Assembly: GCA_022826665.1 (NCBI GenBank)
Contig: JAJDUK010000055.1
Coordinates: 62,001 to 126,000 of the forward strand
Direction: 5' to 3'
Length of the DNA: 64,000 nucleotides
Source: Alphaproteobacteria bacterium
GTDB taxonomy: Bacteria; Pseudomonadota; Alphaproteobacteria; UBA828
Part shown: piece by piece, positions 21,670-43,625 of the stretch
Numbering within the stretch: the stretch's first letter is position 1
Layout of the letters: the number at the start of each line of letters is the position of its first letter
Position numbers and translations under genes: made by a program
Notes under the pieces: generated by a model
Seen by the model: only the letters and a program-made list of their open reading frames with translations
Database searches by the model: none
Told to the model about the DNA's origin: nothing

Positions 21670-21679
21670 CGGCACCGGC

Positions 21680-21721
21680 GGCAGGCCGTGACAGTGGCGA
21701 GAAATCCGGGCTAGGCTGCCG
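21680..21721 (+). promoter_or_regulatory. Putative promoter block of oxygenase gene
   Basis: Resembles the block at 17545-17586, including ATCCGGG(T/C)TAGnCTG. The proposed -10 is TAGGCT at 21712-21717, with GTGACA 18 nt upstream as a possible -35. The distance to the start codon is 104 nt. Confidence 0.4.
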
Positions 21722-21821
21722 TATTGCCATAGCCGCCGCGCCGCCCGCGGATTGCACCTCGGCAGCCGGGAAGCGACGGCGCGCGCGGTGGAAGGCGTGA
21801 AGCACGGCGCGAGGACTTCCT

Positions 21822-22880
21822 ATGCCGGCCAACTCCCTCTCGGAAATTCCCCTGATCGACATTGGTCCCTATTTCGGGGGCAGCCGCGCTGACAAGAAAC
21901 GTGTCGCGGATGAGATCAGTCGTGCCTGCGAGCACATCGGCTTCTTCCTGGTTTCCGGCCACCAGGTGGACCCGGCGCTCATCGAGAGCGTGCAACGCGA
22001 ATCGAAGGCGTTCTTCGCCCTGCCCCTCGAGGAGAAGCTCGAAATCAAGCAGCGGAAGGAGGAAAAGGGAAGCCGGGGCTACGAGCCGGTCGGCACGGAG
22101 CAGCTCTCGGCAACGATCGGTGTGGAGACCCCTCCCGACCTCAAGGAATCCCTGTCGATCGGGCCGCTGGCGGTGCCGGACCATCCGTCCTGCCGAACGG
22201 AGGAAGCCCTGCCCCTCTTCAGGCCCAACATGTGGCCTGAGAACCCAGCCACGCTCCGCCCTACTTACGAGGCGTACATCAGGGCGCTGGACCGACTAAG
22301 CGAGCACCTGCACCGGCTTGCGGCGATCGCATTCGACCTGCCCGAAGACCACTTCGAGGACAAGATCGACCGGGGTTTCAGCATCCTCCGCGTGCTCAAC
22401 TATCCGAACCAGCGGGAGGAGCCCGAGGAGGGTCAGCTCCGCGCCGGAGAGCATTCGGACTATGACAATCTGACCATCTGCCTGATCGAGGACAAGCCGG
22501 GCGGCCTGCAGGCGCGGAGCCCGAATGGTGCCTGGGTGGACGTACCGTTCGTCGCCGGGTCCTTCGTGGTCAATATTGGCGACTTCCTGATGCGCTGGAC
22601 GAACGACCGCTGGAAGTCCACGCGGCATCGTGTGGTCAACCCGCCGCTCGCCGCCGGGGAGCGACTCTCCGCCTGCCACTTCATCATGCCCAACCACGAT
22701 GCGCTGATCGAGTGTCTGCCGACCTGCCACGGATCCGATCAGCCGGCGAAGTACCCGCCGATCCTCGCCGGCGACTACATGATCGAAAAATTCGAGAGCC
22801 AGTCGTCCGGCGCAGAGTGGAGCGACGAGGACAGTGAGAAGTTCGGCACCGCTGATACCGAATCGCGCTTCACCCACTGA
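21822..22880 (+). CDS. Isopenicillin N synthase-like 2-oxoglutarate/Fe(II) oxygenase
   Basis: Cytoplasmic non-haem iron oxygenase of the IPNS/DIOX family, 352 aa. The N-terminal DIOX_N domain (IPLIDIGPYFGG...HIGFFLVSGH) precedes the jelly-roll core with the iron ligands HSD (EHSDYDN, about residue 215) and the distal His in TRHRVVNP. The 2OG-binding Arg would be in the segment after it. About 70% identical by eye to the gene at 41277, with the same length, so the two are recent paralogues. The substrate is unknown; family members hydroxylate, desaturate or cyclise small molecules. Confidence 0.9.
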   Translation: MPANSLSEIPLIDIGPYFGGSRADKKRVADEISRACEHIGFFLVSGHQVDPALIESVQRESKAFFALPLEEKLEIKQRKEEKGSRGYEPVGTEQLSATIGVETPPDLKESLSIGPLAVPDHPSCRTEEALPLFRPNMWPENPATLRPTYEAYIRALDRLSEHLHRLAAIAFDLPEDHFEDKIDRGFSILRVLNYPNQREEPEEGQLRAGEHSDYDNLTICLIEDKPGGLQARSPNGAWVDVPFVAGSFVVNIGDFLMRWTNDRWKSTRHRVVNPPLAAGERLSACHFIMPNHDALIECLPTCHGSDQPAKYPPILAGDYMIEKFESQSSGAEWSDEDSEKFGTADTESRFTH

Positions 22881-22925: not shown

Positions 22926-23288
22926 CTACACGTCGGCCGGCACCCAGGGGGGAAGCGGCTCCCCGCCGCAATAGTGGTTCTCCGCCGGGTTCTCGCGGAA
23001 CACGACGTAGATGTCGGCAGCGTCGACGCCCATCGTATCGTTCAGGATTTCGGCGATGGCATCGACCAGCGCCTTCTTGCGTTCGGGCTCGCGGCCTGGC
23101 CTCAAGTCGATCTCGACCAGGGGCACGCCGTCGCCGATCTCTGCGACCACCTCGCGCACGGCGACGTAGTCGTATTTGGTCTGCTTGGGCGCGAGGGTCT
23201 TGAGCACCGCTGCCTTGACCGCAACACGGACGACTTCCTGCGTAGTGGCGGGCGTACCGGAAGGGACTTCGAGGCGAATGACAGGCAT
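22926..23288 (-). CDS. Tautomerase-superfamily protein
   Basis: A 120-aa protein beginning Met-Pro, so the catalytic N-terminal proline (Pro1 after Met removal) of the 4-oxalocrotonate tautomerase/MIF superfamily is present. The segment IDLRPGREPERKKALVDAIAEILNDTMGV has the usual arginine and helix. It is longer than the 60-70-aa short tautomerases, so probably a two-domain or MIF-like form. It is on the minus strand, with the deacetylase and cupin genes upstream in the same direction. Confidence 0.8.
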   Translation of the reverse strand: MPVIRLEVPSGTPATTQEVVRVAVKAAVLKTLAPKQTKYDYVAVREVVAEIGDGVPLVEIDLRPGREPERKKALVDAIAEILNDTMGVDAADIYVVFRENPAENHYCGGEPLPPWVPADV

Positions 23289-23341: not shown

Positions 23342-24235
23342 TCACGAATCGCCGGGTACAGTGCCCGGAGGCAGGCTCTCGATATGGGCGCAGATGTCGC
23401 GCGGGCGCGTCAGCCAGATTCGGTCGCGCTGGGGCGCGATGTGCTCGAAGAAGCGGCGCAGGTGGCGTATGCGATAGGGCCGCCCCATCACGAAGGGATG
23501 GAGTGAGATCGGGAACACCAGGGGCTGCCCCTCGCTCTGGGCCAGCATCTCGTCGAAGCCGTCGATCAGCATGTCCACGAATTCGCGTGCCGTGTGACCG
23601 TACCAGACGATGCCGCGGGTATCGTTGCATTCGACCGGATAGGGCATCGCCATGATGCGGCCGGCGCGGGTCGTCATCCAGATAGGCTGATCGTCGCAGG
23701 TCCAGTCCATGAAATAACGATAGCCCGCCTCCTGCAGCAGGTCGGGGGTGACCGCGCTGTTGGAGAGCCAGGGGCTCATCCATCCCGCTGGGCGGCTGCC
23801 CTCGTGGCGTTCGATGGTCTCTGTGACCTCGGCGATCAGCGCGGCCTCGGCCGCCTCGTCGAGGTGCTCCTGCATGTCCGAATTGGTGATGCCGTGGCCC
23901 AGGATTTCGTGGCCGCGCTGCCTGAGTGCGACCGGAATGTCGGGGCAGTGCTCGTAGATGCCAAGGTTCATCTGCGCTTCAATGGGCACGTCGAAGGCGT
24001 CGAACAGCTCGAGCAGGCGCCAGATGCCGACCCGGTTGCCGTAGTCGCGCCATGAATAGACGCTGTGGCTGTTGGCCTGGTCCGCCGGTGCGATGGCCGC
24101 GCCCTTGCCCTCGCCGAAGCTGAACTGCTCGATGTTGACCGCGACGTAGACGGCGAGACGCGTGCCGTTCGGCCAGTCGTAGACCGGGCGGCTGGTGATG
24201 CTGGAGTAGAGGTAGCGGCCGTGGGTGCGAATCAT
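23342..24235 (-). CDS. NodB-fold polysaccharide deacetylase/PuuE-like protein
   Basis: A 297-aa member of the polysaccharide deacetylase superfamily. The NodB region shows ILGHGITNSDMQEH, WMSPWLSNSAVTPDLLQEAGYRY and FPISLHPFVMGRPYR, in the style of cytoplasmic PuuE/allantoinase-like and PgdA-like enzymes, which use one metal to cleave C-N bonds. There is no signal peptide. The start ATG at 24235 is chosen because the 58-residue upstream extension is the arginine-rich shadow of the cupin gene. The second family member at 40275 also sits next to an IPNS-like oxygenase. Confidence 0.87.
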   Translation of the reverse strand: MIRTHGRYLYSSITSRPVYDWPNGTRLAVYVAVNIEQFSFGEGKGAAIAPADQANSHSVYSWRDYGNRVGIWRLLELFDAFDVPIEAQMNLGIYEHCPDIPVALRQRGHEILGHGITNSDMQEHLDEAAEAALIAEVTETIERHEGSRPAGWMSPWLSNSAVTPDLLQEAGYRYFMDWTCDDQPIWMTTRAGRIMAMPYPVECNDTRGIVWYGHTAREFVDMLIDGFDEMLAQSEGQPLVFPISLHPFVMGRPYRIRHLRRFFEHIAPQRDRIWLTRPRDICAHIESLPPGTVPGDS

Positions 24236-24297
24236 GACGACTTGGGTCCCGCGCGCCGCTCCGGATGATCCCAACTCACCTTGTCCTGCGCCGCAGC

Positions 24298-30292: not shown

Positions 30293-31753
30293 CTAAGCCG
30301 CCTGCTTGGACTTGAAGCCGTTCTCCTCGATCCAGCGGGTGGTGTCGTCGAGGGCCAAGGTGAAGCGGCGCATCATCTCCTCGACCTCAGCCTCGGTCAT
30401 CACCAGCGGCGGGGCGAAGGCGAGGCTGTCGCCGGCGAGCGCGCTCCTGATGATGAGGCCGTGCTCGCGGGCGCGGTCCACGGCATAGGTCTTGACGCCG
30501 AAGGACGGGTCGAAGGAGCGCCGGGTCTCCTTGTCCGCCACCAGCTCGATGGCGCCCATCATGCCGACGCCGCGCGTGGTCCCCACCAGCGGATGATCGG
30601 CGAAACCCCGGATGCGCTCCTGCAGCAGGGCGCCGACGCGACGCACGTTGCCGAGCACGTCACGCTCCTCCATCAGCTCCTGGCAGCGGAGTGCGACGGC
30701 GACCGCCACCGGGTGGCCGGTGGTGGTGAAGGCGTGGGCGAAGAAACCCAATTTGCGGCTCTCGGCCAGCATGGCGTCGTAGAGCTTCTGGTTGATCATC
30801 ACCGCCGAGATCGGCTGATAAGCGCTGGCCAGCCCCTTGGCGAGAGAAAGGCCGTCCGGCCGGATGTTGAAAGTCTCCGATCCCAGCCAGCTGCCGGTCC
30901 TGCCGGAGCCGGTGATGACCTCGTCGGCGAAGAACAGGATCTCGTACTTGTCGAGGACGGCCTGCACCTTCTCGAAGTAGGTCCGGGGCGGCACGATGCA
31001 GCCGCCGCCGCCCATCACGGGCTCGGCGAAGAAGGCGGCGACGGTCTCGGGTCCCTCCTTCACGATCAGCTCTTCGAGGTTGTTGGCGAGCCTTGAGGCG
31101 TAGTCCTCCTCGCTCTCGCCCGGCTCGCCGTAGCGGTAGAAGTGCGGACAGTCGGTCTTGAGGAAGAGGTCGTTGACCGGCAGGTCGAAATCCGTGTGCA
31201 TCTGCGGGATGCCGGTGACGCTGGCCGCGCCGCAGGTGACGCCGTGGAAGCCCATGAAGCGGGAGATGATCTTCTTCTTCTCCGGCTTGCCGATGGCGTT
31301 GTGGTAGTACCAGGCGAGCTTGACCAGCGTGTCGTTTGCCTCCGAGCCCGAGTTGGCGAAGAAGACCCGGGCCATGGGTACGTGGGTCGAGCCCTTGAGC
31401 CGCTCGGCAAGACGCCCCATGGGCTCGGTCGTCTTGTCGATCAGCGAGTGGTAGTAGGGCAGCGCCCGGAACTGCTCGATCGCGGCGTCGACCAGCTCGC
31501 TCTCGCTGAAGCCGAAGTTGGCGCACCACATGCCGGCGACGCCCTCGATGTAGTCGCGGCCCTCTTCGTCGATGATGGAGACGCCTTTCCCTCGGGTGAC
31601 CACAAGCGGCGGCGTCCTCTCCAGCGCGTCGAGATTGCCGTAGCCGTGGGCGACGTGAGCCACGTTGCGCGCGCCGAGGGAATTCGGCTTGCTGATCGGC
31701 GCGGCGCTCTCGGTGCCGCCGTTATCGGGTCTGCTGCTGGCATCGTCCATCAC
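30293..31753 (-). CDS. Class III PLP-dependent aminotransferase (second copy)
   Basis: 486-aa omega-aminotransferase-type enzyme with the PLP lysine Lys306 (SLAKGLASAYQP), Asp277 (FADEVITGSGR) and ANSGSEANDT near 133-142. It is clearly paralogous to the enzyme at 27954 (same order of motifs and shared PGESE...D, EGPETV, AEPVMG) and lies in the opposite direction, with the HigBA pair between. It is downstream of the C45 peptidase gene on the same strand, so an operon of amide hydrolase followed by transaminase is possible. Confidence 0.93.
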   Translation of the reverse strand: MMDDASSRPDNGGTESAAPISKPNSLGARNVAHVAHGYGNLDALERTPPLVVTRGKGVSIIDEEGRDYIEGVAGMWCANFGFSESELVDAAIEQFRALPYYHSLIDKTTEPMGRLAERLKGSTHVPMARVFFANSGSEANDTLVKLAWYYHNAIGKPEKKKIISRFMGFHGVTCGAASVTGIPQMHTDFDLPVNDLFLKTDCPHFYRYGEPGESEEDYASRLANNLEELIVKEGPETVAAFFAEPVMGGGGCIVPPRTYFEKVQAVLDKYEILFFADEVITGSGRTGSWLGSETFNIRPDGLSLAKGLASAYQPISAVMINQKLYDAMLAESRKLGFFAHAFTTTGHPVAVAVALRCQELMEERDVLGNVRRVGALLQERIRGFADHPLVGTTRGVGMMGAIELVADKETRRSFDPSFGVKTYAVDRAREHGLIIRSALAGDSLAFAPPLVMTEAEVEEMMRRFTLALDDTTRWIEENGFKSKQAA

Positions 31754-31897: not shown

Positions 31898-32989
31898 CTA
31901 CGCGGCGAGGGGATATTCCTCGTAGTCGGATTCGCAGGGCTGCGTGTCGGTGATGTGGAGCGTCCGCTGCTTCAGCGAGATCATGATGGAGTGGTTGGTC
32001 TGCAGCCTCAGCGTCTCCGCCTCTTCCTCGTCATAGTGTGCGCAGATCGAGTGCGGATAGCCGAAGTGGTCCGCCATCGCCGACCTGATGGTCTCCGAAT
32101 CGAGCTCCTGCGACTGACGCAGCAACCGCTCCAGGCGCACATGGCGGTACATCGTGTTGGGCCAGAGCTTCACCACCTCCGACTCCACGTCCAGCTTGCA
32201 GAAGTGGTTGGAGTGAGTGAGCAGACCGTCATCCGGGTAGATGAAGGCTTCCTTGTCCGGGCTCGTCTCGATGTCGATGGCGATGCCGTCCTCATGGGCG
32301 ATGAGGAAGTTCATCGATACCGAGCGATTGGTACCGCAGATCGCCAGGATGGCCTCCTGCATGTTGCGGGCGTTCATGATGTCGCGCACGCGCATGCGGT
32401 AGGGCTTCTCGTATTCGTACTTGCCGTCCTCCGGGGTCAGCAGCGCGTTGATGACCACGCCGATGCCGTTCTCGTTGACGCCCTGGAGGCCGCCGATGGT
32501 ACCGACCTCGCCGATGTGGATGAAGTCGGGCCCATCGTCCCGATGCACCCGCGAGACCACGGTGTTGATGTCCTTCACCCAGTCCCAATTCTGGCCGATC
32601 ATCGTGTCGCCGTTCTTCGAGCGCTCGGGCAACACGGCGAACGAGGTGCAGGCATCCATGGCTGTGGGCTGGTATTGCGCCTGTGCGTCGCTCTTCATCA
32701 TGTTCACGAGCATTTCGTAGCGCACGTTGAGGAGGGTGATCTCCTCCAGGCTGCGGCCCGAACCCTCGACCACGCCATCAATCTCCTCCCAGAAGATCGG
32801 GTCCTTGGGCCTCAGCGCCTCGGCCCACCTGGCCGATTCGGCCATCAATGCACCTTTCTCGAAGCCCAGAATCTGGAAGCGCTTGAGATAGCGCTCGAGG
32901 TTCTGGCTGATCTCCTTCGACATGATCTCGCCGTGAACGCGGCCACGATCCCTGGGATCACCGGTCAGGTTGAGCACTGGCTTGGTCAT
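31898..32989 (-). CDS. C45-family peptidase / acyl-transferase-like amide hydrolase
   Basis: 363-aa member of the N-terminal-nucleophile family C45 (acyl-CoA:6-aminopenicillanic acid acyltransferase-like). The predicted nucleophile is Cys114 in MDACTSFAVLP, followed by the oxyanion-hole region IGQNWDW and LQGVNENGIGVVIN. These enzymes auto-cleave before the Cys and hydrolyse linear amides. The substrate is unknown. The preceding IPNS-like oxygenases make a penicillin-like pathway superficially tempting, but both families are widely used for other amides. Confidence 0.85.
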   Translation of the reverse strand: MTKPVLNLTGDPRDRGRVHGEIMSKEISQNLERYLKRFQILGFEKGALMAESARWAEALRPKDPIFWEEIDGVVEGSGRSLEEITLLNVRYEMLVNMMKSDAQAQYQPTAMDACTSFAVLPERSKNGDTMIGQNWDWVKDINTVVSRVHRDDGPDFIHIGEVGTIGGLQGVNENGIGVVINALLTPEDGKYEYEKPYRMRVRDIMNARNMQEAILAICGTNRSVSMNFLIAHEDGIAIDIETSPDKEAFIYPDDGLLTHSNHFCKLDVESEVVKLWPNTMYRHVRLERLLRQSQELDSETIRSAMADHFGYPHSICAHYDEEEAETLRLQTNHSIMISLKQRTLHITDTQPCESDYEEYPLAA

Positions 32990-33265
32990 CGATCGCCTCC
33001 TGCATGGTCCCGTCGTGCGAATTGATCGCTTGTTCTTTGCCGCACGAACGAGCCGGTCGAATTCGTTGCCAGCGGAGAATAGCGCGGCGGCTGGAGCAAG
33101 AGAAGGCGGAAAGAGCGCAACAGTATGGGCGGACCGGAAGCGGCACGCGCGATCCTAGGCGGATGCGGGCAAGGCGCAGGCAGTGCTCTCGTGCTACCGT
33201 TGCGGCGTTGGGACTCGCCGCTTCCCCGAGAAGCGGGGAGACGGCTCCACCGGTCGGAGGCCGCC

Positions 33266-34126
33266 ATGAAGACGATACCAGCGACCCTTTCGGTCATCTT
33301 GGCGACGGTGCTGCTCGCCGGGACGAGCGCCGCCGAGACCCCTCTTGAGCGGGGCACCTACCTGATGGACAGCGTCGCCGCCTGCCCGGTCTGTCACACT
33401 TCGTGGACCGAGGACGGCCAGATCACCGACATGCATATGGCGGGTGGCCTGATGTTCGAGGAGGATGACTACACCGCCTACGCGTCCAACATCACGCCCG
33501 ACCCCGAGACCGGAATCGGCGGCTGGAGCGACGAGGAGATCATCACCGCGATCCGCGAGGGTAAACGGCCGGACGGTTCGATCATCGGCCCGGCCATGCC
33601 GATCTCGCTTTATCGGGGCCTCTCGGATCGGGACGTGCAGGCGATCGTCGCCTACCTGCGCTCGATCCCGCCGATCAAGAACGAGGTGCCTGCTTCCGAG
33701 TACGAGATCGATCTACCCGCTGATTACGGCCCGCCGCTCGGCGAGGTGCCCGAGGTCGCGTACTACGATCTCGGCGCCTACGGTGAATATCTGGCGGGCC
33801 CGATCGCCAACTGCACGTACTGCCATACACCGATCGAGAATGGCTGGCGGGACTACGAGAACATGCTGGGCGCCGGCGGCCACGAGATGGAAGGGCCCTG
33901 GGGCGAGACCGTGGCCCGCAACATCACGCCGGATTGGAGTACAGGACTCGGCCGCTGGAACAGCCGAAAGATGCGCACGGCCATCACCAAAGGGTTGAGG
34001 CCCGACGGCGACGAGCTCGGCCCGCCCATGCCTTACGCGCGCTACGACACGATGGATCGCCAGGACCTCAGTGCGATCCTCGCTTACGTGCGCTCGTTGC
34101 CCCAAATCGAGAACGACACCGATTGA
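33266..34126 (+). CDS. Exported dihaem cytochrome c
   Basis: A 286-aa protein with an N-terminal signal peptide (about residues 1-25) and two haem-binding CXXCH sites: CPVCH (about residues 39-43) and CTYCH (about 185-189). The spacing and the DPETGIGGWSDEEIITAIREG pattern in each half match the cytochrome c subunits of membrane alcohol/aldehyde dehydrogenase complexes. No dehydrogenase subunit is beside it. The start is the ATG at 33266; a longer N terminus in the frame is arginine-rich shadow sequence. A putative -10 (TACCGT, 33195-33200) lies 65 nt upstream. Confidence 0.88.
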   Translation: MKTIPATLSVILATVLLAGTSAAETPLERGTYLMDSVAACPVCHTSWTEDGQITDMHMAGGLMFEEDDYTAYASNITPDPETGIGGWSDEEIITAIREGKRPDGSIIGPAMPISLYRGLSDRDVQAIVAYLRSIPPIKNEVPASEYEIDLPADYGPPLGEVPEVAYYDLGAYGEYLAGPIANCTYCHTPIENGWRDYENMLGAGGHEMEGPWGETVARNITPDWSTGLGRWNSRKMRTAITKGLRPDGDELGPPMPYARYDTMDRQDLSAILAYVRSLPQIENDTD

Positions 34127-34216
34127 CAGCCGTCCGCTGCGGCATGATTGCGCCTTGACGGGTTAACGCGCGAACGGGCAAGCTTCCGCAACTTTTCGGG
34201 ACGCGAAGGCAGAACC

Positions 34217-35239
34217 ATGACCCTTCAGCAGGTTCCCGTTATCGACATCGCGCCGTTCCTCGGCGGAGAGCGCGACGGCAAAGCGCGGGTGGCAGCCGAG
34301 GTCAAGCAGGCGTGCGAAGACATCGGCTTCTTCGTCATCACCGGCCACGGGGTCGACCCGGCGCTGACCAAGGCGACTCACGACGTCAGCCGGCGCTTTT
34401 TCGATCTGTCGCTTGATGAGAAGATGACGATCGAGCGCTGGGCCGACGACGTCATCCGGGGATACAGCCCGGCTCTGAAGGAATGCTTGGCCGAAAGCCG
34501 CGGCGAGCGGGGTCCGGGCGATCTCAAGGAATCGCTGACCGTCGGCCCGCCGTTCGTGCCGGACGAGCCCTACTATCACTGTGCCGAGGCCGGCCAGCAC
34601 TTCGTCGAGAACCGCTGGCCGACGCGTCCCGCCGAGCTCAAGGAGACGTGGATCGCGTACTGGGACGCGATGGAGCAGCTTGCCTTCACGCTCATGCGCA
34701 TCTTTGCTTGCGCCCTCGACCTCGGCGAAGACTATTTCGATACGCGGGTCGACAGGCACGTCAGCCAGTTCCGTGTGCTCAACTACCCGGACCAGCCTGC
34801 CCCACCGCTGGAAAACCAATTCCGTGCCAGCGCGCACTCGGATTTCGGCGCCTGCACTATCTGTGCGATCGAGGACAAGCCTGGCGGTCTCCAGGCCATG
34901 AATCGGGACGGCGAGTGGGTGAACGTGCCGGTGGTGCCCAATGCGTTCAGCATCAATCTCGGCGACCAGATGCAGATGTGGACCAACGACATGTGGGTTT
35001 CCACCCTGCACAGGGTCGTCAATCCGCCGCGTGACAAGGCGAACGACAGCCGCCGACAGTCGATGATCTTCTTCTTCTATACGAACTACGACTGCATGAT
35101 CGAATGCTTCCCGGCCTGTCAGAGCGCGGACAATCCGGCCAAGTACCCGCCGGTCACCACAAGCAAGAACCTGCTCGACAAGTTCCTGATGATGACCGCC
35201 ATCGGCGCCTCGGGACAGAGGGCGTCCGATCAGCCATAA
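34217..35239 (+). CDS. IPNS-like 2-oxoglutarate/Fe(II) oxygenase, divergent copy
   Basis: 340-aa non-haem iron oxygenase of the same DIOX family as those at 21822 and 41277 but more divergent. DIOX_N opens with VPVIDIAPFLGG and CEDIGFFVITGHG; iron ligands are in SAHSDFG (His, Asp) and TLHRVVNP. Start ATG at 34217, with a purine-rich GAAGGCAGAACC upstream. It leads directly into the sugar-type ABC transporter genes, with only 66 nt and two small hairpins between. Confidence 0.88.
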   Translation: MTLQQVPVIDIAPFLGGERDGKARVAAEVKQACEDIGFFVITGHGVDPALTKATHDVSRRFFDLSLDEKMTIERWADDVIRGYSPALKECLAESRGERGPGDLKESLTVGPPFVPDEPYYHCAEAGQHFVENRWPTRPAELKETWIAYWDAMEQLAFTLMRIFACALDLGEDYFDTRVDRHVSQFRVLNYPDQPAPPLENQFRASAHSDFGACTICAIEDKPGGLQAMNRDGEWVNVPVVPNAFSINLGDQMQMWTNDMWVSTLHRVVNPPRDKANDSRRQSMIFFFYTNYDCMIECFPACQSADNPAKYPPVTTSKNLLDKFLMMTAIGASGQRASDQP

Positions 35240-35256
35240 GGCGCCGAGTGGCGCCT
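35239..35256. other. Small hairpin at the end of the oxygenase gene
   Basis: AGGCGCC/GGCGCCT with a 4-nt loop begins in the stop codon region. A second weaker stem (GAGCC/GGCTC, around 35272-35286) follows. Their place before the binding-protein gene suggests partial termination or mRNA processing. Confidence 0.35.
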
Positions 35257-35305
35257 CAAGAAACGACCAAGGAGCCGTTAAGGCTCGAAACCAAGGGAGG
35301 TAGAC

Positions 35306-36430
35306 ATGATCAAACGGGCGAGACTCGCGGTGCTGGCAACTGCTGCACTGGCACTGGCGGTGACGGGAATCTTCGGCCCATCGCCGGCTTCGGCCCAAGA
35401 GGACAAGTACAAGGTCTTCGTCAGCGTGGGCTTCGAGGGCAACACCTGGATGGATGCGGCGCAGAACCTGATCCGCTCCATGGCCAAGACCAAGGCCTTC
35501 AAGGACCGGGTGGAGCTCAACATGCAATCGGCGCGGGCCGATATCCAGACCCAGATCCAACAGGTCAACGCCATGGTCCAGGGCGATGCCGACATCATCA
35601 TCCTGTGGCCGAACTCGCGCACCGCGCTCAATCGCTCGATCCGTCAGGCGTGCCAGAGGGGCATTATCGTGATGACCTTCGACGCATCGGTGACCGAGCC
35701 CTGCGCCTACCACATCGGCCTGGATCAGACCTGGGCCGGTGCGGGGCCCGCGGAATATCTGGCCGAGGAGCTCGGCGGTAAGGGCAGCATCATCGTCATG
35801 GGCGGCTACCCCGGCCACTACATCGATCATGCCCGCACCGACGGCGCCATGGAGGTCTTCGCCGCATATCCGGAGATCGAGGTCCTGGTCCATGCCTACA
35901 GCAACTGGAACAACGCGCACGCTAGGCAGGAGCTGACCAAGATCGTGGCCACCCACGGCTGGGACAACATCGACGGGCTGTGGACCCAGGTGGGCTGCTA
36001 CATGTTCTCGCAGATCCAGGTCGAGGCCGGCCGTGCGGACCAACTGGTGCCCTGCGCCGGTAACGGCACCAACGGGCATAGGATCGCCATCGCCGAGCCC
36101 GGCACGGTGCCGGGTGCGCTGGGCATGAAGAGCAGCTCCATGGGCTCGCCCAACTGGCTCGGTGCCTACGCGCTCAAGGTCGCCGTCGCCTATGCCGACG
36201 GCGGTGCGGAGCCGCCGCGCTTCACCCAGGTGCCGATGCCGCTGGTCGAGCCGGGCCAGGTGGTGGTGTGCACCGAGGGGACGCGCGAGGAACTGCTCGC
36301 GCGCAACTGCAACACCTACCATCCAGATCTCGGGGTGCCGCCGAACTACTTCGTCGACGTGTGGCATCCCTGGGTGAGCGAGCTCGACCTGTTCTCGGCG
36401 CTCGAAGGCAAGGTGCCGGAAGGTCAGTAG
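35306..36430 (+). CDS. Ribose/sugar-type ABC transporter substrate-binding protein
   Basis: Periplasmic receptor of 374 aa with a signal peptide of about 30 residues (ending near PASAQE) and a type I periplasmic-binding fold (KVFVSVGFEGNTWMDAAQN). It is RbsB-like, with DADIIILWPNS and TFDASV strands in expected places. The cargo is unknown; pyranoses, autoinducer-like sugars or polyols are typical of the family. First gene of the transporter set; followed by a strong stem-loop that may keep it more abundant than the membrane genes. Confidence 0.88.
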   Translation: MIKRARLAVLATAALALAVTGIFGPSPASAQEDKYKVFVSVGFEGNTWMDAAQNLIRSMAKTKAFKDRVELNMQSARADIQTQIQQVNAMVQGDADIIILWPNSRTALNRSIRQACQRGIIVMTFDASVTEPCAYHIGLDQTWAGAGPAEYLAEELGGKGSIIVMGGYPGHYIDHARTDGAMEVFAAYPEIEVLVHAYSNWNNAHARQELTKIVATHGWDNIDGLWTQVGCYMFSQIQVEAGRADQLVPCAGNGTNGHRIAIAEPGTVPGALGMKSSSMGSPNWLGAYALKVAVAYADGGAEPPRFTQVPMPLVEPGQVVVCTEGTREELLARNCNTYHPDLGVPPNYFVDVWHPWVSELDLFSALEGKVPEGQ

Positions 36431-36445
36431 CAAAAGGCCTAACAG

Positions 36446-36501
36446 GGAGGCACCTTCTACCGTGCGGGACCCGCGCAAGCGGGTCCCGCACGGACGCCTC
36501 C
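36446..36501 (+). promoter_or_regulatory. Large mRNA stem-loop between binding-protein and ATPase genes
   Basis: A perfect 15-bp stem, CCGTGCGGGACCCGC (36460-36474) with its complement (36479-36493) and a GCAA tetraloop, is extended by a lower GGAGGC/GCCTCC stem (36446-36451 / 36496-36501). A GNRA-class tetraloop on a GC stem is very stable. It probably sets unequal expression of receptor and transporter core, as intergenic stem-loops do in other importer operons. Confidence 0.7.
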
Positions 36502-36521
36502 GACAGGTCTGACGCGCTGCC

Positions 36522-38060
36522 GTGGAAGAGAGCGGGAGCGAGGCGCCTGCCGCATTCGAGGTCGTCGGACTAAGAAAGCATTTTGGCGCCACGATTGCCC
36601 TGGATGACGTGTCGCTCGCCGTCGGGTCGGGCGACGTTCACGCGTTGCTCGGCGAGAACGGCGCCGGCAAGTCCACACTCGTCAAAATCCTCAGCGGTCT
36701 CATCCGAGCCGACGCCGGCGAAATCCAATTGTTCGGCGAGCCCGCGCGGCTCGGCGACCCGCGCACCGCGCACCGCGCCGGCATCCAGACCGCCTATCAG
36801 GAAATCTCGCTGATCAAGGACCTCACGGTCACGCAGAACATGCTCCTGCCCTACGAGCCCGCGTATCCGGGCGGGCAGGTGCGCCGGCGGCGATCCGAAG
36901 AGCTGGTGCGCGAGATGCTCCAGAGACTCGGCCTGGATGATATCGACCCGCGCGTGGAAGTCGCGACGCTCGATCTCTCCACCCAGCAGCGGATCGAGAT
37001 TGCCCGCGCCATCTCGCGCGAGCCGAGGATTCTGCTGCTGGATGAGCCGACCTCGGCGCTCTCCGGCAAGGATGTCGAATGGCTGCACGGCCAGGTCAAT
37101 GCGCTGCGAGAGCGCGGCGTGACCACGGTGTTCATCTCCCATCGCATGCAGGAGGTCCGGCGCTTCTGCGACAACCTGACCGTGCTGCGCAACGGTGCCA
37201 ACGTCGGAAGCTTCGCGGTCGCAGATATTTCGGAGGAGGAGGTCATCGCGCTGGTGATCGGTCGTTCGCTGGCCGCAACCTTCCCAGAGAAGCCGCCGCA
37301 CGCAGCGGGGGAGCCGGCAGACCCGATACTTTCGGCCGAGGGACTCGCTGCCGGGGGCAGACTCAAGGCCCTGTCGTTCGAGCTGCGCCCCGGCGACGTG
37401 CTTGGCGTTGCGGGGCTCGAGGGGATGGGCCAACGCGAACTCTTCCTCGCGCTGTTCGGCATGATCAGACCCACGGCCGGCACGGTCTCGGTCTACGGCA
37501 AGCCGGTCACCCTGAAGTCGCCACGCGATGCGCTCCGGGCCGACATCGGCATCAGCCTGGTGCCGGAGGAACGCAAGACGGAGGCGCTGGCGCTTGAGAT
37601 GACCGGGCGGGAGAACGTCTCGCTGCCCGTCATCGAGCGGTTCAGGCGTTTCGGGGTCATCGACACGGCTGCGGAGTCCGCGGCCGTCTCTCGGGTGCTG
37701 GACCTGGTGCAAGTGGATCGCCGCGCGCTCCATACCGCCTGCAAGGTCTTCAGCGGCGGCAACCAGCAAAAGCTCGCCATCGCCAAGTGGCTGCTGACCG
37801 AGAACCGCATCCTGCTCATGTACGACCCGACCCGCGGCGTCGACGTCGGCACCAAGGCCGAGATCTACGTGATGATCCGCGCCTATGCGAGCGCGGGCGG
37901 CGCGGTGCTGTTCTACTCCACCGACGTGTCGGAGCTGGTCAACCTCTGCGATGAGGTGAAGGTCGTCTATGGCGGCCGCGCGGCGGCGACGCTGAGCGGC
38001 GATGCGCTCTCGGAGCCTGCCGTCATGCGCGCGGCGCTGGGCGAGGGCGGGGCGCCGTGA
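36522..38060 (+). CDS. Sugar-type ABC ATPase with two nucleotide-binding domains (RbsA/MglA-like)
   Basis: 512-aa tandem ABC ATPase. The N-terminal half has Walker A GENGAGKST (about residues 45-53), Walker B ILLLDEPTSALS and an atypical signature, LSTQQRIEIAR, that looks two residues shorter than LSxGQxQxVEIA. The C-terminal half has the usual degenerate Walker A (GLEGMGQRE) and an intact signature FSGGNQQKLAIAKWL. This is the CUT2-family layout. It overlaps the permease gene by 4 nt (GTGA). Confidence 0.92.
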   Translation: MEESGSEAPAAFEVVGLRKHFGATIALDDVSLAVGSGDVHALLGENGAGKSTLVKILSGLIRADAGEIQLFGEPARLGDPRTAHRAGIQTAYQEISLIKDLTVTQNMLLPYEPAYPGGQVRRRRSEELVREMLQRLGLDDIDPRVEVATLDLSTQQRIEIARAISREPRILLLDEPTSALSGKDVEWLHGQVNALRERGVTTVFISHRMQEVRRFCDNLTVLRNGANVGSFAVADISEEEVIALVIGRSLAATFPEKPPHAAGEPADPILSAEGLAAGGRLKALSFELRPGDVLGVAGLEGMGQRELFLALFGMIRPTAGTVSVYGKPVTLKSPRDALRADIGISLVPEERKTEALALEMTGRENVSLPVIERFRRFGVIDTAAESAAVSRVLDLVQVDRRALHTACKVFSGGNQQKLAIAKWLLTENRILLMYDPTRGVDVGTKAEIYVMIRAYASAGGAVLFYSTDVSELVNLCDEVKVVYGGRAAATLSGDALSEPAVMRAALGEGGAP

Positions 38061-40186
38061 ACGGCAGGCCGCTGCTGCCGTTGCCGCGATTCGATCGCGC
38101 CAGCCTCCCGGTGGTGAACTGGCAGCGCCAGCGCGGCCTTCTGATCTCGGTCGGCGTGTTCCTGGTGATGCTGATCATCCTGCAGCTCGTGAAGGGCGAG
38201 GGGATCAGCTACTTCGACGTGAGCTCCATCACCACCGGCGCGACGACGCTCGCGCTCGCGGCCGTGGGCGAGACCATCGTCATCCTGGCCGGAGGATTCG
38301 ATCTCTCGGCCGGCGCGGTGATCTCGCTGGTCAACGTGATGATTATCCAGTTTCTGGGCGGTGGGTCGGAATTCTCCTCTGACGTTGCCGCGCTTTCGGG
38401 CGCCGAGTTCATCGGAGCGGCACTCGCGCTCGCGCTTGCGGTGGGCGCGGCGATCGGGGCGATTAACGGCTTCCTGATCGCCTTTCTTGGCCTGTCGGCA
38501 ATCGTCGTGACGCTCGCCACGATGTTCATTGCGCAGGGCGCGGCCCTGCTGGTGATGACCCACGCGGGCGGCGAGGCGCCTTGGGAGTTCAGCATGTTCT
38601 TCACCGGCGAGGCCATCGCCGGCGTGCTGCCCGCGCCGATCATCGTGCTCGCGGTCGTCATCGTGCTCTGGCTGGCGCTGCGGAATTCGCGGCTCGGGAC
38701 CGGGATCTACGCCATCGGCAGCGACGAGAAGTCGGCGCTGGCAAGCGGCACCGACGTGCGGATGACGAAGTTCTGGACCTACACCATCGCCGGCGTCTGC
38801 TACGGCGCCGCCGGCATGTTCATGACCGCCCAGATCGGCGCCGGAGACCCGCTGATCGGCGCCAAGTTCCTGCTCAAGATTTTCGCCGCCGTGGTCATCG
38901 GCGGGACACTGATCGGCGGCGGGCGCGGCGGCTGTGTCGGCACCGTCTTCGGCGCGCTGACGCTCACCATCATCCTCACGATCTTCCTGCTGCTCGGCAT
39001 GCGCACCTGGTACGTGCCGTTGGCCGAGGGCGCGATCCTGATCTTCGCCGTGCTCGGACTCTCGATGAGCCGGGACCTGCCGGTGGTGGATGTCGTGCGC
39101 GGCTGGCGGCAGGCGCTCCGCACGCGCTGGCGAGCACCGGTCGTGCCCTCGGCCGGCCTGGGGGGCGCCGGGTTGTTGCAGGACCTGCTGGGCCGAACGG
39201 CGGCGCGCGGCGGCCCCGATCTGACCCGCCCGACCGCAGGCTGGTTCACCCGTAACCAGGCCACGCTCCGCTACATCTCCCCCACCTACGTCATGTTCGC
39301 CGTGATCGTGATCGCGACTGTGGTGCTCTTCGGCGAGAACCTGTCGGCGCTCGAATATCTCAACGTCCTGCTGCTGTTCACCGCCTTTCTCGCGATCCTG
39401 GGCTTGGGCCAGGGGGCGGTCATCATCTCGGGCGGGCTCGATCTTTCGGTTGCGTGGGCGATCACGTTCCCGGCGATCGTCGTTACCACGTTCTGCTTCG
39501 GCGAGAATGGACCGGCCTATTGGGCGGTGCCGCTGGCGCTGGCGATCGGACTCGCGATCGGCTGTCTGAACGGTCTCATGATCGTGCTCTTCAGGATGTC
39601 GCCGATCATCGTCACGCTGGCGATGGCCGGCATGCTCGAAGGCATCTCGCTCATCTTCAGCGACGGTGCGCCTATCGGCGGCTCGCCGCCGGTGCTGCGC
39701 TGGTTCGTATCGGGCCGGCTGCTCGGCATCGCGCCCATCGGCTGGTTCCTGATCGCCTTTGCCATCGTGGCGACGATCTTCCTCAACCGGACTGCCTTCG
39801 GGCGCAGGCTCTACACGGTGGGCAACAGCGTCACCGTGGCGCGGCTTTCCGGCGTCTGGACCGGTTCCGTCATCGTCGGTGCCTACATGCTGAGCGGCTT
39901 TTGCTCCGCGCTGGTGGGCGTCCTGCTCTCGGGCTTCAGCGGGCAGGCGTTCTTCGGCATGGGGGATCCGTTCCTGCTGCAATCCATCGCGGTGGTGGTT
40001 CTGGGCGGCACGCTGATTACCGGCGGGCGCGGCCACTTCGTTGGCATCCTGGGCGGTGCCCTGCTGTTCACGGCGCTCGGCTCGCTGCTGACAGGAACGA
40101 TGCTGCCCGAGGCGGTGCGCAGTATCATCTACGGACTCGTGCTGCTCGGCGCTATCGTCGCGCTTCGAGAGCGCGCGGACGCATGA
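38057..40186 (+). CDS. Fused double permease of sugar-type ABC transporter
   Basis: 709 aa, about twice the length of an RbsC-type permease. Two complete repeats are visible: residues about 20-340 (LAAVGETIVILAGGFDLSAGAVISL...GGTLIGGGRGGCVGTVFGAL) and about 405-709 (LGLGQGAVIISGGLDLSVAWAIT...GGTLITGGRGHFVGILGGAL), joined by an arginine-rich cytoplasmic-looking linker of about 60 residues. In most CUT2 systems this channel is formed by two separate chains. GTG start overlaps the ATPase stop. The halves are not identical, so the fused channel is a fixed heterodimer. Confidence 0.92.
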   Translation: MNGRPLLPLPRFDRASLPVVNWQRQRGLLISVGVFLVMLIILQLVKGEGISYFDVSSITTGATTLALAAVGETIVILAGGFDLSAGAVISLVNVMIIQFLGGGSEFSSDVAALSGAEFIGAALALALAVGAAIGAINGFLIAFLGLSAIVVTLATMFIAQGAALLVMTHAGGEAPWEFSMFFTGEAIAGVLPAPIIVLAVVIVLWLALRNSRLGTGIYAIGSDEKSALASGTDVRMTKFWTYTIAGVCYGAAGMFMTAQIGAGDPLIGAKFLLKIFAAVVIGGTLIGGGRGGCVGTVFGALTLTIILTIFLLLGMRTWYVPLAEGAILIFAVLGLSMSRDLPVVDVVRGWRQALRTRWRAPVVPSAGLGGAGLLQDLLGRTAARGGPDLTRPTAGWFTRNQATLRYISPTYVMFAVIVIATVVLFGENLSALEYLNVLLLFTAFLAILGLGQGAVIISGGLDLSVAWAITFPAIVVTTFCFGENGPAYWAVPLALAIGLAIGCLNGLMIVLFRMSPIIVTLAMAGMLEGISLIFSDGAPIGGSPPVLRWFVSGRLLGIAPIGWFLIAFAIVATIFLNRTAFGRRLYTVGNSVTVARLSGVWTGSVIVGAYMLSGFCSALVGVLLSGFSGQAFFGMGDPFLLQSIAVVVLGGTLITGGRGHFVGILGGALLFTALGSLLTGTMLPEAVRSIIYGLVLLGAIVALRERADA

Positions 40187-40212
40187 CTCGCGAAGGGAGC
40201 GCGCGGACGCAT
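40169..40212. repeat. 16-bp direct repeat at the end of the permease gene
   Basis: GAGCGCGCGGACGCAT occurs at 40169-40184, covering the last permease codons, and again at 40197-40212 after the stop. The 28-nt spacing looks like a small duplication of the gene end. Confidence 0.6.
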
Positions 40213-40274
40213 AGGGCCGGAGGCTACGGGACCGGACATCCGCCGCGACGCGGCAACGCCAGAAGGGGGAAACC

Positions 40275-41189
40275 ATGGCCACGAAGAAAGACATTCAGGT
40301 TTGTTTCAATCCCCATTTCGATTCGGTTTCGCTCTGGATCGGATCGTTCGGCGGCGCCGATTCGCCCTGCGACATCTCGCGCGGCGTCTTCGCGGCGCGG
40401 CAGGGGGTGCCGCGTATCCTGGAGATGATGGACCGCTACGGCATCAAGACCACGTGGGACATCACCGGCCACTCGATCGAGAGCTTTCCGAAGGAATCGG
40501 AATTGATCGTGAAGTACGGCCACGAGCTGGGCGTGCACGGCTACACGCACGAGAACCCGCTCGCCATGTCGCGCCAGCAGGAGGCGGACGTGCTCGACAA
40601 GTGCATCGAGCTGGTGACCGACCTCTGCGGCGTGCGCCCGGTCGGCTACGTCGCGCCGTGGTGGGAGCTCAGCCCCAACACCATCGACCTGCTTCTCGAG
40701 CGCGGTTTCCTCTATGACCGCAGCGTGATGGAGGACGACTACACGCCGCACTACCTGCGCAGTGGCGATAGCTGGACCAAGATCGACTATACCCAGGAGG
40801 CCAAGACCTGGATGAAGCCCTGGCAGCCGGGGGAGGCGGTCGACCTGGTCGAGCTGCCGGCGAGCTGGTACCTCGACGACGCGCCGCCCATGATGTTCGT
40901 GAAAACCTTCCCGAACAGCCACGGCTGGGTCAATCCGCGGGATGTCGAGGACATCTGGCGCGACCAGTTCGACTGGATCTACCGTCACTACGACTATGCG
41001 ATCTACACCTGCGTGATCCATCCGGACTGCGCGGGCAAGCCGCAGGTGCTGATGATGCTGGAACGGATCTTCGACCACATGCTGGCGCACACCGGCGTGC
41101 GCATGATCACGATGCGGGAGATGGCCGAGGACTTCAAACGCCGCCATCCCTTCAACGGCACGACCGAAGGCGCGCCCGCCGCGGACTAA
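40275..41189 (+). CDS. NodB-fold polysaccharide deacetylase/PuuE-like protein (second copy)
   Basis: 304-aa polysaccharide-deacetylase superfamily enzyme without a signal peptide. The metal-binding HGYTHENP motif, the Asp of the opening VCFNPHFDSVSLWIG strand and the conserved RPVGYVAPWWELS block are visible. Cytoplasmic members of this type, like PuuE, act on allantoin-like or amide C-N bonds rather than polymers. It lies between the sugar-type transporter and the close oxygenase paralogue, echoing the pairing at 21.8-24.2 kb. Start ATG 40275 follows AGAAGGGGGAAACC. Confidence 0.86.
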   Translation: MATKKDIQVCFNPHFDSVSLWIGSFGGADSPCDISRGVFAARQGVPRILEMMDRYGIKTTWDITGHSIESFPKESELIVKYGHELGVHGYTHENPLAMSRQQEADVLDKCIELVTDLCGVRPVGYVAPWWELSPNTIDLLLERGFLYDRSVMEDDYTPHYLRSGDSWTKIDYTQEAKTWMKPWQPGEAVDLVELPASWYLDDAPPMMFVKTFPNSHGWVNPRDVEDIWRDQFDWIYRHYDYAIYTCVIHPDCAGKPQVLMMLERIFDHMLAHTGVRMITMREMAEDFKRRHPFNGTTEGAPAAD

Positions 41190-41276
41190 GCGAGGGCGCG
41201 AACCGCGCCACTGGCCCCGCGTCCTGCGCCGAGGGGCCGGCGGCGGAAAGACCGAAGCGCAGTGAAAGGAGCTCCC

Positions 41277-42335
41277 ATGTCGACCGGATCCCTCGCCGAG
41301 ATTCCGCTCATCGACCTCAGCCCCTATTTCGCGGGCGACCCGGCCGACAAGCGGCGGGTCGCGGACGAGATCAGCCGAGCCTGCGAGCGCATCGGTTTCT
41401 TCATGGTCTCGGGCCACGGGGTGGACCCGGCGCTTATCAAGCGCGCGCGCCGCGAATCCCTGACGTTCTTCGGCCTGCCGATGAAGGAGAAGCTTGCCAT
41501 CAGGAAGCCAGAGGGCGATTTGGCGGTCCGCGGCTACGAGCCGGTGGGCACGGAGCACCTCTCGGCGACGATCGGTGTGGAGACGCCGCCCGACCTGAAG
41601 GAATCGATCTCCTTCGGGCCTATCGAGGCGTTCGATCATCCGTCCTGCCATACAGAGGCAGCCGCGCCCTGCTACGCGCCCAATATCTTTCCGCAGCACC
41701 CGGCGGGGCTCCGTCAGACCATCGAGGACTACATTCGGGCCCTCGACCTGCTCGGCTGGCACCTGCACCGGCTCGCGGCCATCGCCTTCGAACTGCCCGA
41801 GGACCACTTCGACGCCATGCTCGAAAGGGGCTTCAGCATCCTCCGCGTGCTGAACTATCCCGAGCAGAAATCGGCGCCCAAGGAGGGGCAGCTTCGCGCC
41901 GGCGAGCACTCGGACTACGACAACCTCACCATCTGCCTGATCGAGGACAAGCCGGGCGGCCTGCAGGCACGCGGCCCGGACGGCACCTGGGTGAACGTGC
42001 CAGCGATCCCCGGTTCGTTCGTGGTCAACATTGGCGACTTCCTGATGCGCTGGACCAATGACCGCTGGAAATCCACGCGGCATCGCGTGCTCAACCCGCC
42101 GCACGCGTCCGGGGACCGCCTTTCCTTCTGCCACTTCATCGAGCCCAACTACGACGCGCTGATCGAGTGTCTGCCGACCTGCCACAGCCAGGAGGAGCCG
42201 GCGAAGTACCCGCCGATCACGGCCGGCGCCTACATGCTCGAGAAATTCTCCAGCCAGGAGAGCGGCCGCGAGTGGGACGACGATGACAGCGAGAAGTTCG
42301 GTACCGGAGACACCGAGACGCGCTTTGTCAACTGA
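41277..42335 (+). CDS. IPNS-like 2-oxoglutarate/Fe(II) oxygenase (close paralogue)
   Basis: 352 aa, the same length as the enzyme at 21822 and about 70% identical by eye, including RGYEPVGTE(H/Q)LSATIGVETPPDL, the HSDYDNLTIC iron site and TRHRVLNPP. Start ATG at 41277 follows AAAGGAG; an in-frame ATG 15 nt upstream is inferior. Two same-length paralogues next to deacetylases of one family suggest a duplicated oxygenase/deacetylase module. It converges on the Rieske oxygenase gene with 19 nt between. Confidence 0.92.
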   Translation: MSTGSLAEIPLIDLSPYFAGDPADKRRVADEISRACERIGFFMVSGHGVDPALIKRARRESLTFFGLPMKEKLAIRKPEGDLAVRGYEPVGTEHLSATIGVETPPDLKESISFGPIEAFDHPSCHTEAAAPCYAPNIFPQHPAGLRQTIEDYIRALDLLGWHLHRLAAIAFELPEDHFDAMLERGFSILRVLNYPEQKSAPKEGQLRAGEHSDYDNLTICLIEDKPGGLQARGPDGTWVNVPAIPGSFVVNIGDFLMRWTNDRWKSTRHRVLNPPHASGDRLSFCHFIEPNYDALIECLPTCHSQEEPAKYPPITAGAYMLEKFSSQESGREWDDDDSEKFGTGDTETRFVN

Positions 42336-42354
42336 CCGCGGTGGGATCACCGCG

Positions 42355-43455
42355 CTAATCGTCCACGGCCTCCCGCATCCATTGCTGGAGCGTCCGGATG
42401 GAGTGCTCGGAGTTGAGCCCGCCGGCCGGATCGACCACGAGCGGGCCGGGGCGGTACCCGCGGCTCTTCAGCCCCTGCGCCACGCTTTCGACCAGCCGGA
42501 TATCCTCCGCGACCGTGGTCTCGCGGTCCTGCGCCGCGAGCTGCCGGATCACCACGCTCTCGGCACCGCCCGGCGTGTACCAGCCGCGCCAGACGGTGCA
42601 GCTGTCCACGCCGTGGGCCCGCCAGTGGTAGGTGTTCAGCACGTTGCCCGGATAGACCTGGAACGAGAACATCGGCCAGAGGAAGAACGTGCGGTATTCC
42701 CCGGCATGGGGCACCGATAGGTCGATCGGATAGCTCATCCGCTCCAGGTCCTGGCACTCGGTCGTGTGGCGCAGGACGTAGCCTTCCCCTGAAGGCTGGA
42801 TGTCATAGGTCTCGGGCCGGATCACGCCGGTCGCGAAGGTCGGATGGCGCAGCACGCAGTGGTAGCACTCGGAGTGGTTCTCGACCGAGACCTTCCAGTT
42901 GCAGGCCTCCGGAACCTCGATCCATTCAAGCGGTTCGAGCGCGCCGATGTCGGGAACATAGTCCGCGAGTTCCTCCCGCACGCCCGGATACCACGCCTCC
43001 ATCGGCGCCGCGTCGTCGTCGAGATTGACGAAGACGAAGCCGTGCAAGCTCTCGCTCCGCACTGCCGTGAGGCGGGTCGACGCGCCGTCGAAACCCGGAA
43101 CCGATTCCACGTTCGGCCCGCTGCGGAACGCGCCGGTCAGCTCGTAGGACCAGGCGTGGTAGGGGCAGACGATGGCGCGCGTCGTGCCGGCGCCTTCCAC
43201 CAGCCGATGCCCCCGGTGCTGGCACACGTTGTAGAAGGCGCGCAGCACGCCGTCGCGCCCGCGGATGCAGAACAGGCTCTCGCCCGCAATCTCGCAGGTG
43301 AAGTAGTCGCCGGCCTCGCGCGCTTGGCTCTCGTGCCCGGCGAACTGCCAGGTCCGGGAGAGCAGGCCCGCGCGCTCCTTCTCGAAGATGGCCGGATCGG
43401 TGTAGTAGCGTGCGGCGAGCGAACGGACGGGCGCTGGCGGGTCTTGACCTGTCAT
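42355..43455 (-). CDS. Rieske non-haem iron oxygenase alpha subunit (GbcA-like)
   Basis: 366-aa ring-hydroxylating-type oxygenase. The Rieske ligands are Cys78/His80 (NVCQHRG) and Cys97/His100 (CPYHAW). The mononuclear iron site is in NWKVSVENHSECYHCVLRHP (His194, His199), a form found in glycine-betaine and related quaternary-amine monooxygenases (GbcA, carnitine oxygenase) rather than in naphthalene-type dioxygenases. Start at 43455 has GGAGG upstream. No ferredoxin reductase gene is nearby. Confidence 0.9.
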   Translation of the reverse strand: MTGQDPPAPVRSLAARYYTDPAIFEKERAGLLSRTWQFAGHESQAREAGDYFTCEIAGESLFCIRGRDGVLRAFYNVCQHRGHRLVEGAGTTRAIVCPYHAWSYELTGAFRSGPNVESVPGFDGASTRLTAVRSESLHGFVFVNLDDDAAPMEAWYPGVREELADYVPDIGALEPLEWIEVPEACNWKVSVENHSECYHCVLRHPTFATGVIRPETYDIQPSGEGYVLRHTTECQDLERMSYPIDLSVPHAGEYRTFFLWPMFSFQVYPGNVLNTYHWRAHGVDSCTVWRGWYTPGGAESVVIRQLAAQDRETTVAEDIRLVESVAQGLKSRGYRPGPLVVDPAGGLNSEHSIRTLQQWMREAVDD

Positions 43456-43625
43456 TCCCGACGATCCTCCCCGGCTGGCGATGCGGCGCACGCGGCGCCG
43501 GCCACGATAGGCGAAACGGCTGTCCATCGCCCAGTAGAATGTCCATGCGAGTCGCTTGGTTGGGAGAGCTCCTCGATGTTTCCATTCTTCGACACACGTC
43601 ACGTCGGCAACATCGTGGTCGTGCC

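Follow-up and report, generated by a model that had tools for sequence, protein, structure and literature searches.

The locus described here, a set of genes at 33,266–43,602 of a 64,000-nucleotide stretch of alphaproteobacterial DNA (hereafter the window) together with a divergent partner gene just upstream, is in the reading that we modestly favour an island that imports a small nitrogenous compound and degrades it by hydrolysis, to which this lineage has added an oxidative front end. What argues for this is the homology of its hydrolase to HP0310 (PDB 3QBU), the linkage of that hydrolase with a C45 amidase and an importer, a second island on contig C14 of the same genome, a run of related genes on the metagenome contig L019, and the importer, amidase and hydantoinase genes that lie beside relatives of the hydrolase elsewhere. 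The window lies on contig C92 of its own genome (G000; 4.6 Mb in 106 contigs). Its genes were identified from open reading frame (ORF) calls, Pfam scans and NCBIfam curated models, with the G+C content of third codon positions (GC3) as a coding sign. Relatives were compared within the order (22 genomes) and family of the genome collection used, and in these the coding starts and GC3-based gene calls are approximate. The isolate names in the titles of the metagenome-assembled genomes that match best suggest that the closest relatives of the lineage are sponge-associated Alphaproteobacteria.

Seven plus-strand genes occupy 33,266–42,335 with gaps of no more than 91 bp (ORF and Pfam scans), a spacing that makes an operon plausible, and all eight genes from 33266 to 43602 have coding-type GC3 (0.82–0.90). 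The original prediction, made from the letters of the sequence, had called the genes at 33,266–43,455 correctly, and all eight families were reproduced by ORF and Pfam scans; its region left out the C45 partner at 31898–32989, which lies just upstream on the minus strand and is divergent. The features of the locus are as follows.

30293–31753, minus strand: class III omega-aminotransferase, directly downstream of the C45 gene on the same strand (PF00202, 1e-76; exceeds the PRK06105 subfamily cut-off)
31898–32989, minus strand: C45 autoproteolytic N-terminal nucleophile (Ntn) hydrolase/amidase (PF03417, 6e-17; NF040521, the NCBIfam C45_proenzyme model, 229 bits against a cut-off of 85)
32990–33265: divergent intergenic region between the C45 gene and the seven-gene run, from the gene coordinates
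33266–34126, plus strand: secreted dihaem cytochrome c (two cytochrome c domains, CxxCH twice, signal peptide by inspection)
34217–35239, plus strand: 2-oxoglutarate (2OG)-Fe(II) oxygenase A, isopenicillin N synthase (IPNS)-like (PF14226, DIOX_N, 3e-25; PF03171, 2OG-FeII_Oxy, 3e-18; PDB 9OVH, 1e-49)
35306–36430, plus strand: substrate-binding protein (SBP), Peripla_BP_4, predicted ribose-type/CUT2 fold (PF13407, 3e-46; AlphaFold model matched by Foldseek to 4RS3, 8e-18)
36522–38060, plus strand: ATP-binding cassette (ABC) ATPase with two nucleotide-binding domains (PF00005, 4e-48, 2 stretches)
38057–40186, plus strand: fused double permease, two BPD_transp_2 (PF02653, 2e-54, 2 stretches)
40275–41189, plus strand: PF01522 NodB-fold hydrolase, a homologue of the HP0310/HxnM-clade imidases, of the ‘HFD’ subclade (3QBU, 7e-118 over 289 residues)
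41277–42335, plus strand: 2OG-Fe(II) oxygenase B, IPNS-like, a paralogue of oxygenase C described below (PF14226, 4e-28; PF03171, 2e-20)
42355–43602, minus strand, convergent: predicted Group V-type Rieske oxygenase alpha subunit, carnitine monooxygenase-like (PDB 6Y8J, 4e-59)

The hydrolase at 40275–41189 had been labelled a NodB-fold deacetylase, but by sequence it is a member of the HP0310/HxnM cyclic-imidase clade and not a polysaccharide deacetylase. It aligns without gaps to HP0310 over residues 4–292 (phmmer, 7.3e-118), keeps the zinc ligands Asp14, His86 and His90 (as Asp16 and HGYTH) and the active-site His247, and has no signal peptide by inspection. HP0310 is inactive on N-acetylglucosamine (GlcNAc), on chitotriose (GlcNAc oligomers) and on allantoin, has no groove for a polysaccharide and probably has a small molecule as its ligand (PMC3084791), and HxnM of Aspergillus nidulans, whose closest structural homologue is HP0310, is a cyclic imidase that opens 3-hydroxypiperidine-2,6-dione (PMC9304392). 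It is because of the ungapped alignment and these small-molecule properties that we read the window protein as a probable ring-opening enzyme of the imidase type. In a motif alignment, the catalytic Asp12 of HP0310 is replaced by His14, and for this reason we class the protein as a putative divergent imidase homologue rather than a proven imidase; for brevity, we call it the window imidase. The same region reads [PTV]HFD in 19 of 19 sequences of a well-delimited subclade (clade support 99/96), which was found only in the family of the window among samples of the order, class and phylum. The window's own genome holds four such HFD copies and one canonical copy with VDVD, the latter on contig C96.

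These properties bear on the possibility, nearest to the wording of the original prediction, of a sugar-linked system in which an N-acylated or N-alkylated amino sugar would be imported, deacetylated by the NodB-fold enzyme and trimmed of its substituents by the oxygenases. Both its sequence and its predicted fold do place the importer in the ribose/xylose (CUT2) family, and the NodB fold is common to true deacetylases. However, the solved member of the clade has no such groove and no activity on GlcNAc oligomers, the window imidase falls far short of the polysaccharide-deacetylase models (NodB, 21.9 against a cut-off of 240; PgdA, 35.7 against 400), and the annotation of the island revealed no gene for a sugar kinase, an isomerase or a glycosidase; we consider this alternative quite improbable. 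The PuuE allantoinase model TIGR03212 (cut-off 424.6) is likewise not reached, either by the window imidase (66.4) or by a second NodB-fold gene at 23.3 kb (137.6). As for the importer, the ribose-type family and fused permease claimed earlier are confirmed by Pfam, with a predicted CUT2-like fold: the AlphaFold model of the SBP (pLDDT 77) matches CUT2 proteins generally and indicates no ligand, and the SBP, ATPase and permease all score far below the sugar equivalog cut-offs. Two further fused-permease CUT2 importers are present in the same genome (L266:4703-13231 and L267:136-11890), one beside a Rieske oxygenase and a glucose-methanol-choline (GMC) oxidoreductase and the other beside hydantoinase genes and an S15 peptidase.

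The conserved core of the locus consists of the imidase and the C45 hydrolase, often joined by the importer. The oxygenases, the Rieske enzyme and the cytochrome occur as accessories in close relatives only. The C45 gene is held by 13 of the 22 genomes of the order, and in 11 of these 13 it shares a contig with an HFD imidase, within about 8 kb (G000, G016, G015, G020, G009, G017, G005, G002, G003, G008 and G011). In G019 the arrangement is that of the window, with the break between two contig ends falling within oxygenase A, and G007 has the C45 gene and no HFD imidase in the order-wide imidase table. The C45 orthologues that share a contig with an HFD imidase have 55–96% identity, and the nucleophile Cys is kept in 18 of 18 homologues. 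The orientation of the two genes varies: they may diverge, run in the same direction or flank the importer as the first and last genes of an operon (C45-SBP-ATPase-permease-imidase in G005), which argues that the linkage itself has been kept. Importer genes belong to the cluster in six genomes (G000, G016, G019, G005, G015 and G009, the last cut by a contig end), and the aminotransferase lies beside C45, apart from the window, in G016 and G019 only. Across 385 genomes sampled from the class, C45 and close imidase matches were never found at one place outside the family of the window. Asparaginase II and the large subunit of a Mo-hydroxylase lie near C45 and the imidase in G008 and G011. In G007 (L273:3866-10070), C45 stands beside asparaginase II and Mo-hydroxylase subunits, an association that recalls N-heterocycle degradation, and in the distant genome G393 (L220:7990-12548) C45, an amidase and a NodB-fold gene of another kind cluster within a few kilobases.

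Related arrangements occur outside the window as well. Contig C14 of the same genome (L097:4362-16085) carries two tandem imidase paralogues (66% identical) beside a CUT2-type permease, ATPase and SBP, with an amidase, an isochorismatase-type hydrolase, a Rieske oxygenase, a short-chain dehydrogenase/reductase (SDR) and a flavin adenine dinucleotide (FAD) oxidoreductase; G016 has an island of this type with one imidase, and G020 has a C14-type isochorismatase (88%) near C45. On the 3.7-kb contig L019 (L019:3-3671), a window-type imidase, oxygenase B, a C14-type amidase (93%) and a C14-type imidase follow one another in a row, which, if the contig is not chimeric, ties the two islands together. 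Elsewhere, relatives of the imidase are found with importer, SDR, amidase and hydantoinase genes.

The original prediction gave particular weight to the pairing of an oxygenase with a deacetylase, said to recur at 21.8–24.2 kb. The genes concerned are the following.

17598–19562 (HyuB) and 19603–21669 (HyuA), plus strand: hydantoinase genes (PF02538, PF01968; synteny)
21822–22880, plus strand: 2OG oxygenase C, 352 aa, a paralogue of oxygenase B
22926–23288, minus strand: tautomerase, between oxygenase C and the PuuE-clade gene
23342–24244, minus strand: PuuE-clade NodB-fold gene, convergent to oxygenase C (best PDB match 3CL6, 1e-34)

The 352-aa oxygenase paralogue at 21822–22880 is real: oxygenases B and C are 73% identical and form sister clades. 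The oxygenases have DIOX_N and 2OG-FeII_Oxy domains and, by inspection, HSD with a distal His (HxD...H), and thymine 7-hydroxylase (5C3P) is a relative (1.6e-43), although not the closest. The second ‘pair’ does not hold, as its members converge with a tautomerase gene between them, and the deacetylase involved groups with PuuE. The two NodB-fold proteins fall in different clades, HP0310-type at 40.3 kb and PuuE-type at 23.3 kb, and their PDB matches (3QBU versus 3CL6) rule out treating them as one kind. Furthermore, the run HyuB-HyuA-oxygenase C recurs in G017, G019 and G020, whereas the PuuE gene adjoins oxygenase C only in G000 and in G019, where synteny with the window is complete; no PuuE gene is found for 9 kb downstream of oxygenase C in G020 or on the 6-kb contig of G018, and the contig of G017 ends soon after oxygenase C. 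Oxygenase C thus belongs with HyuB-HyuA and not with the PuuE gene. A Liv-type importer lies near this run (17598–22880 in the window) in both the window and G017.

Recurrence in other genomes gave a similar picture. Eighty loci that carry relatives of oxygenase B were surveyed with a sensitive search: a NodB-fold neighbour no more than 1 kb away was present at the three window-type loci and, among 74 more distant ones, at L085 alone, where it is PuuE-like. The lack of general recurrence and the difference between the deacetylase clades are the two observations that the original prediction had itself named as refuting it, and both essentially hold. In the window's own genome, which has 13 PF01522 and 8 DIOX_N genes, the two families come within 2 kb of each other only at the two places in the window. 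This locus survey and the synteny within the order rule out the oxygenase-deacetylase pair as a recurrent unit, and the repetition that was taken as a sign of one falls away: oxygenase B adjoins the imidase only in G000, G016 and G019, which are one genus, and on L019, and the partners of oxygenase C are HyuB-HyuA.

This narrow distribution invites the alternative that oxygenases A and B, the cytochrome c and the Rieske gene were inserted by recent chance into a C45-importer-imidase locus and act on unrelated substrates. Consistent with it, G015, G017 and G020 have C45 and imidase orthologues (the latter 83–85% identical) with no oxygenase beside them. Yet the genes lie on the same strand with gaps of 66–91 bp, three genomes retain the arrangement at 93–97% identity, L019 keeps oxygenase B with imidases although its other flank has changed, and the paralogue C also stands beside an enzyme that opens cyclic amides. 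We regard chance juxtaposition as rather unlikely. That B and C each neighbour a cyclic amide- or imide-opening enzyme (imidase and hydantoinase, respectively) makes a shared chemistry plausible, although this is suggestive only.

The convergent Rieske gene raises another alternative, in which the island would serve a quaternary ammonium compound or N-methylated heterocycle that the Rieske enzyme demethylates or splits first, with the imidase and C45 finishing the degradation. The best PDB match of the Rieske protein is the carnitine monooxygenase CntA (6Y8J, 4e-59), with SECYHC aligned to MECYHC, so that the Glu-Cys-x-x-Cys of CntA (E205/C206/C209) is kept. A bridging Glu with a Cys pair marks some Group V Rieske enzymes, whose substrates are quaternary ammonium compounds (PMC10952381), and on this motif the protein is assigned to the Group V type; CntA and the glycine betaine monooxygenase GbcA are its best relatives. 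On the other hand, it scores 137.7 bits against a cut-off of 670 with the GbcA model NF058607, its gene is convergent and outside the seven-gene run, and no such gene was observed next to the imidase in G005, G009, G015, G017 or G020, some of whose contigs are short. An island dedicated to betaine-type compounds seems unlikely to us.

Returning to import and hydrolysis of a nitrogenous compound, from the gene families, linkage, conservation and active-site motifs that we observe we infer a chemistry, an order of steps, a substrate class and a physiological role. The CUT2-fold ABC importer would take the compound up; oxygenase A, oxygenase B or both, and perhaps the Group V Rieske enzyme, could then remove or oxidise an N- or C-substituent, a step that may be optional. 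The imidase of HP0310/HxnM type would split a C-N bond to open the ring of a cyclic imide or amide, C45 would cut the remaining amide, and in the lineage of the window the omega-amine so released may be a substrate for deamination by the class III aminotransferase. The earlier proposal of oxidation followed by amide cleavage in a single importer-plus-catabolic island survives in outline: C-N cleavage is the best general reading and the amide type was right in kind (a cyclic imidase and a C45 amidase), and the argument from a repeated pair is lost.

Several considerations weigh against this pathway. With His in place of Asp12, the window imidase may not share the activity of its characterised relatives. 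Because synteny is passed on by descent, the 11 linked genomes of 13 do not amount to 11 independent events. The oxygenases are missing beside the imidase in most relatives, and their part in a shared pathway rests on linkage in one genus; no gene for a Rieske reductase was identified nearby. Finally, the metagenome contig L019 is short, was assigned to a Chloroflexota bin and could be misbinned or chimeric.

The canonical imidases have companions of a different kind. In all 24 loci examined in the order, class and phylum samples (among them L106:9428-11750, L208-L219, L276-L281 and L282-L284), they occur with a protein of about 105 aa that begins with an invariant MCxxC and with a CobW/G3E GTPase. 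The usual order is imidase, small protein, GTPase, with SDR genes or a longer gap intervening in some. In the phylum sample, an imidase at E 1e-100 or better is present in 10 of 398 genomes and the small protein in 10 of 396, and these are the same ten genomes, from seven genera. Three plasmid records outside the 24 loci, from Rhizobium johnstonii 3841, Ensifer sp. PDNC004 and Roseateles sp. XES5, have the same gene order by annotation (‘polysaccharide deacetylase’, ‘hypothetical protein’, ‘GTP-binding protein’). Neither Pfam nor NCBIfam has a family that matches the small protein, and its structural model, confident in the core and not in the first 28 residues, has no PDB match at E 0.001. 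The adjacency is an association found here and not a published criterion; no description of the triad turned up in the open-access literature searched on HP0310-HP0311-HP0312 and on COG0523 with a deacetylase or imidase. The HP0310 paper does compare gene contexts anchored on HP0310 and HP0312 in a supplementary figure, so that part of the association may already be known. Because COG0523 G3E GTPases are putative metal chaperones (PMC2770081), a natural guess is that the two partners might deliver metal to the imidase.

Within the HFD subclade, these partners have been lost to different extents: both accompany the imidase in G009, G012 and G014, and the small protein alone does so at seven loci. 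Neither was seen in the window, which has no match to the MCxxC protein or the GTPase, or in G016, G019, G017, G004, G005 (the last two short contigs) and the C14-type loci. A lone MCxxC copy on contig C102 of the window's genome (L297:9566-9949), 75–79% identical to the copies beside C45 in G015 and G020, has apparently been displaced from the window's locus. A bolder proposal is that the HFD branch and its C45 partner form an undescribed nitrogen-ring-opening pathway, and that the lineage of the window gained a 2OG/Rieske front end while losing the adjacent MCxxC-GTPase pair and perhaps dedicated metal delivery; we advance this tentatively and think it doubtful.

Enzymes of the HP0310 clade are mostly annotated ‘polysaccharide deacetylase’, and the contexts described here argue that many of them hydrolyse nitrogen compounds by opening a ring, which would change how the clusters around them are read. 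If it is true that the His-for-Asp subclade works with C45, the pathway has no described counterpart in the literature searched. Likewise, an imidase accompanied by the MCxxC protein and a CobW/G3E GTPase would offer a testable client for a family in which many members have unknown targets.

It is informative to set the island beside known systems. The penicillin-type acyltransferase of family C45 (IAT, PDB 2X1D) shares PF03417 and the autoproteolysis-type Cys site with the window's C45 protein and is distant from it (3.6e-14). CntA and the stachydrine demethylase Stc2, both Group V, share Glu-Cys-x-x-Cys at the mononuclear iron with the window's Rieske protein, which differs in having no recognised adjacent reductase and in not being a GbcA equivalog. 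The rhizobial-type clusters (R. johnstonii 3841 pRL12, Ensifer sp. PDNC004 and Roseateles sp. XES5) resemble the island in combining, co-directionally, an importer, an HP0310-type imidase and an amide hydrolase; they differ in having separate permeases, an SDR pair, an amidase in place of C45 and an MCxxC-type hypothetical protein with a GTPase, and in the stretches shown they have no 2OG oxygenase or Rieske gene. With HP0310/HpPgdA (3QBU), HxnM and the cyclic imide hydrolase of Pseudomonas putida, the window imidase shares full-length ungapped homology, the zinc ligands and the active-site His, and it departs from them in its His for Asp12, its separate subclade and the absence of the adjacent MCxxC protein and G3E GTPase. 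The nicotinate regulon of A. nidulans (hxn, under HxnR) includes the clade imidase HxnM, the thymine-hydroxylase-like 2OG oxygenase HxnY and the amidase HxnN (PMC9304392), as well as the Mo-hydroxylase HxnS, and the relatives G007, G008 and G011 carry a Mo-hydroxylase and asparaginase II beside C45 or the imidase. The regulon is fungal, however, has no ABC importer or C45, and holds HxnY, whose role there is unclear, and HxnM in separate clusters (PMC9304392). Even so, this regulon, with its clade imidase and 2OG oxygenase, makes the earlier statement that the island has no described parallel too strong.

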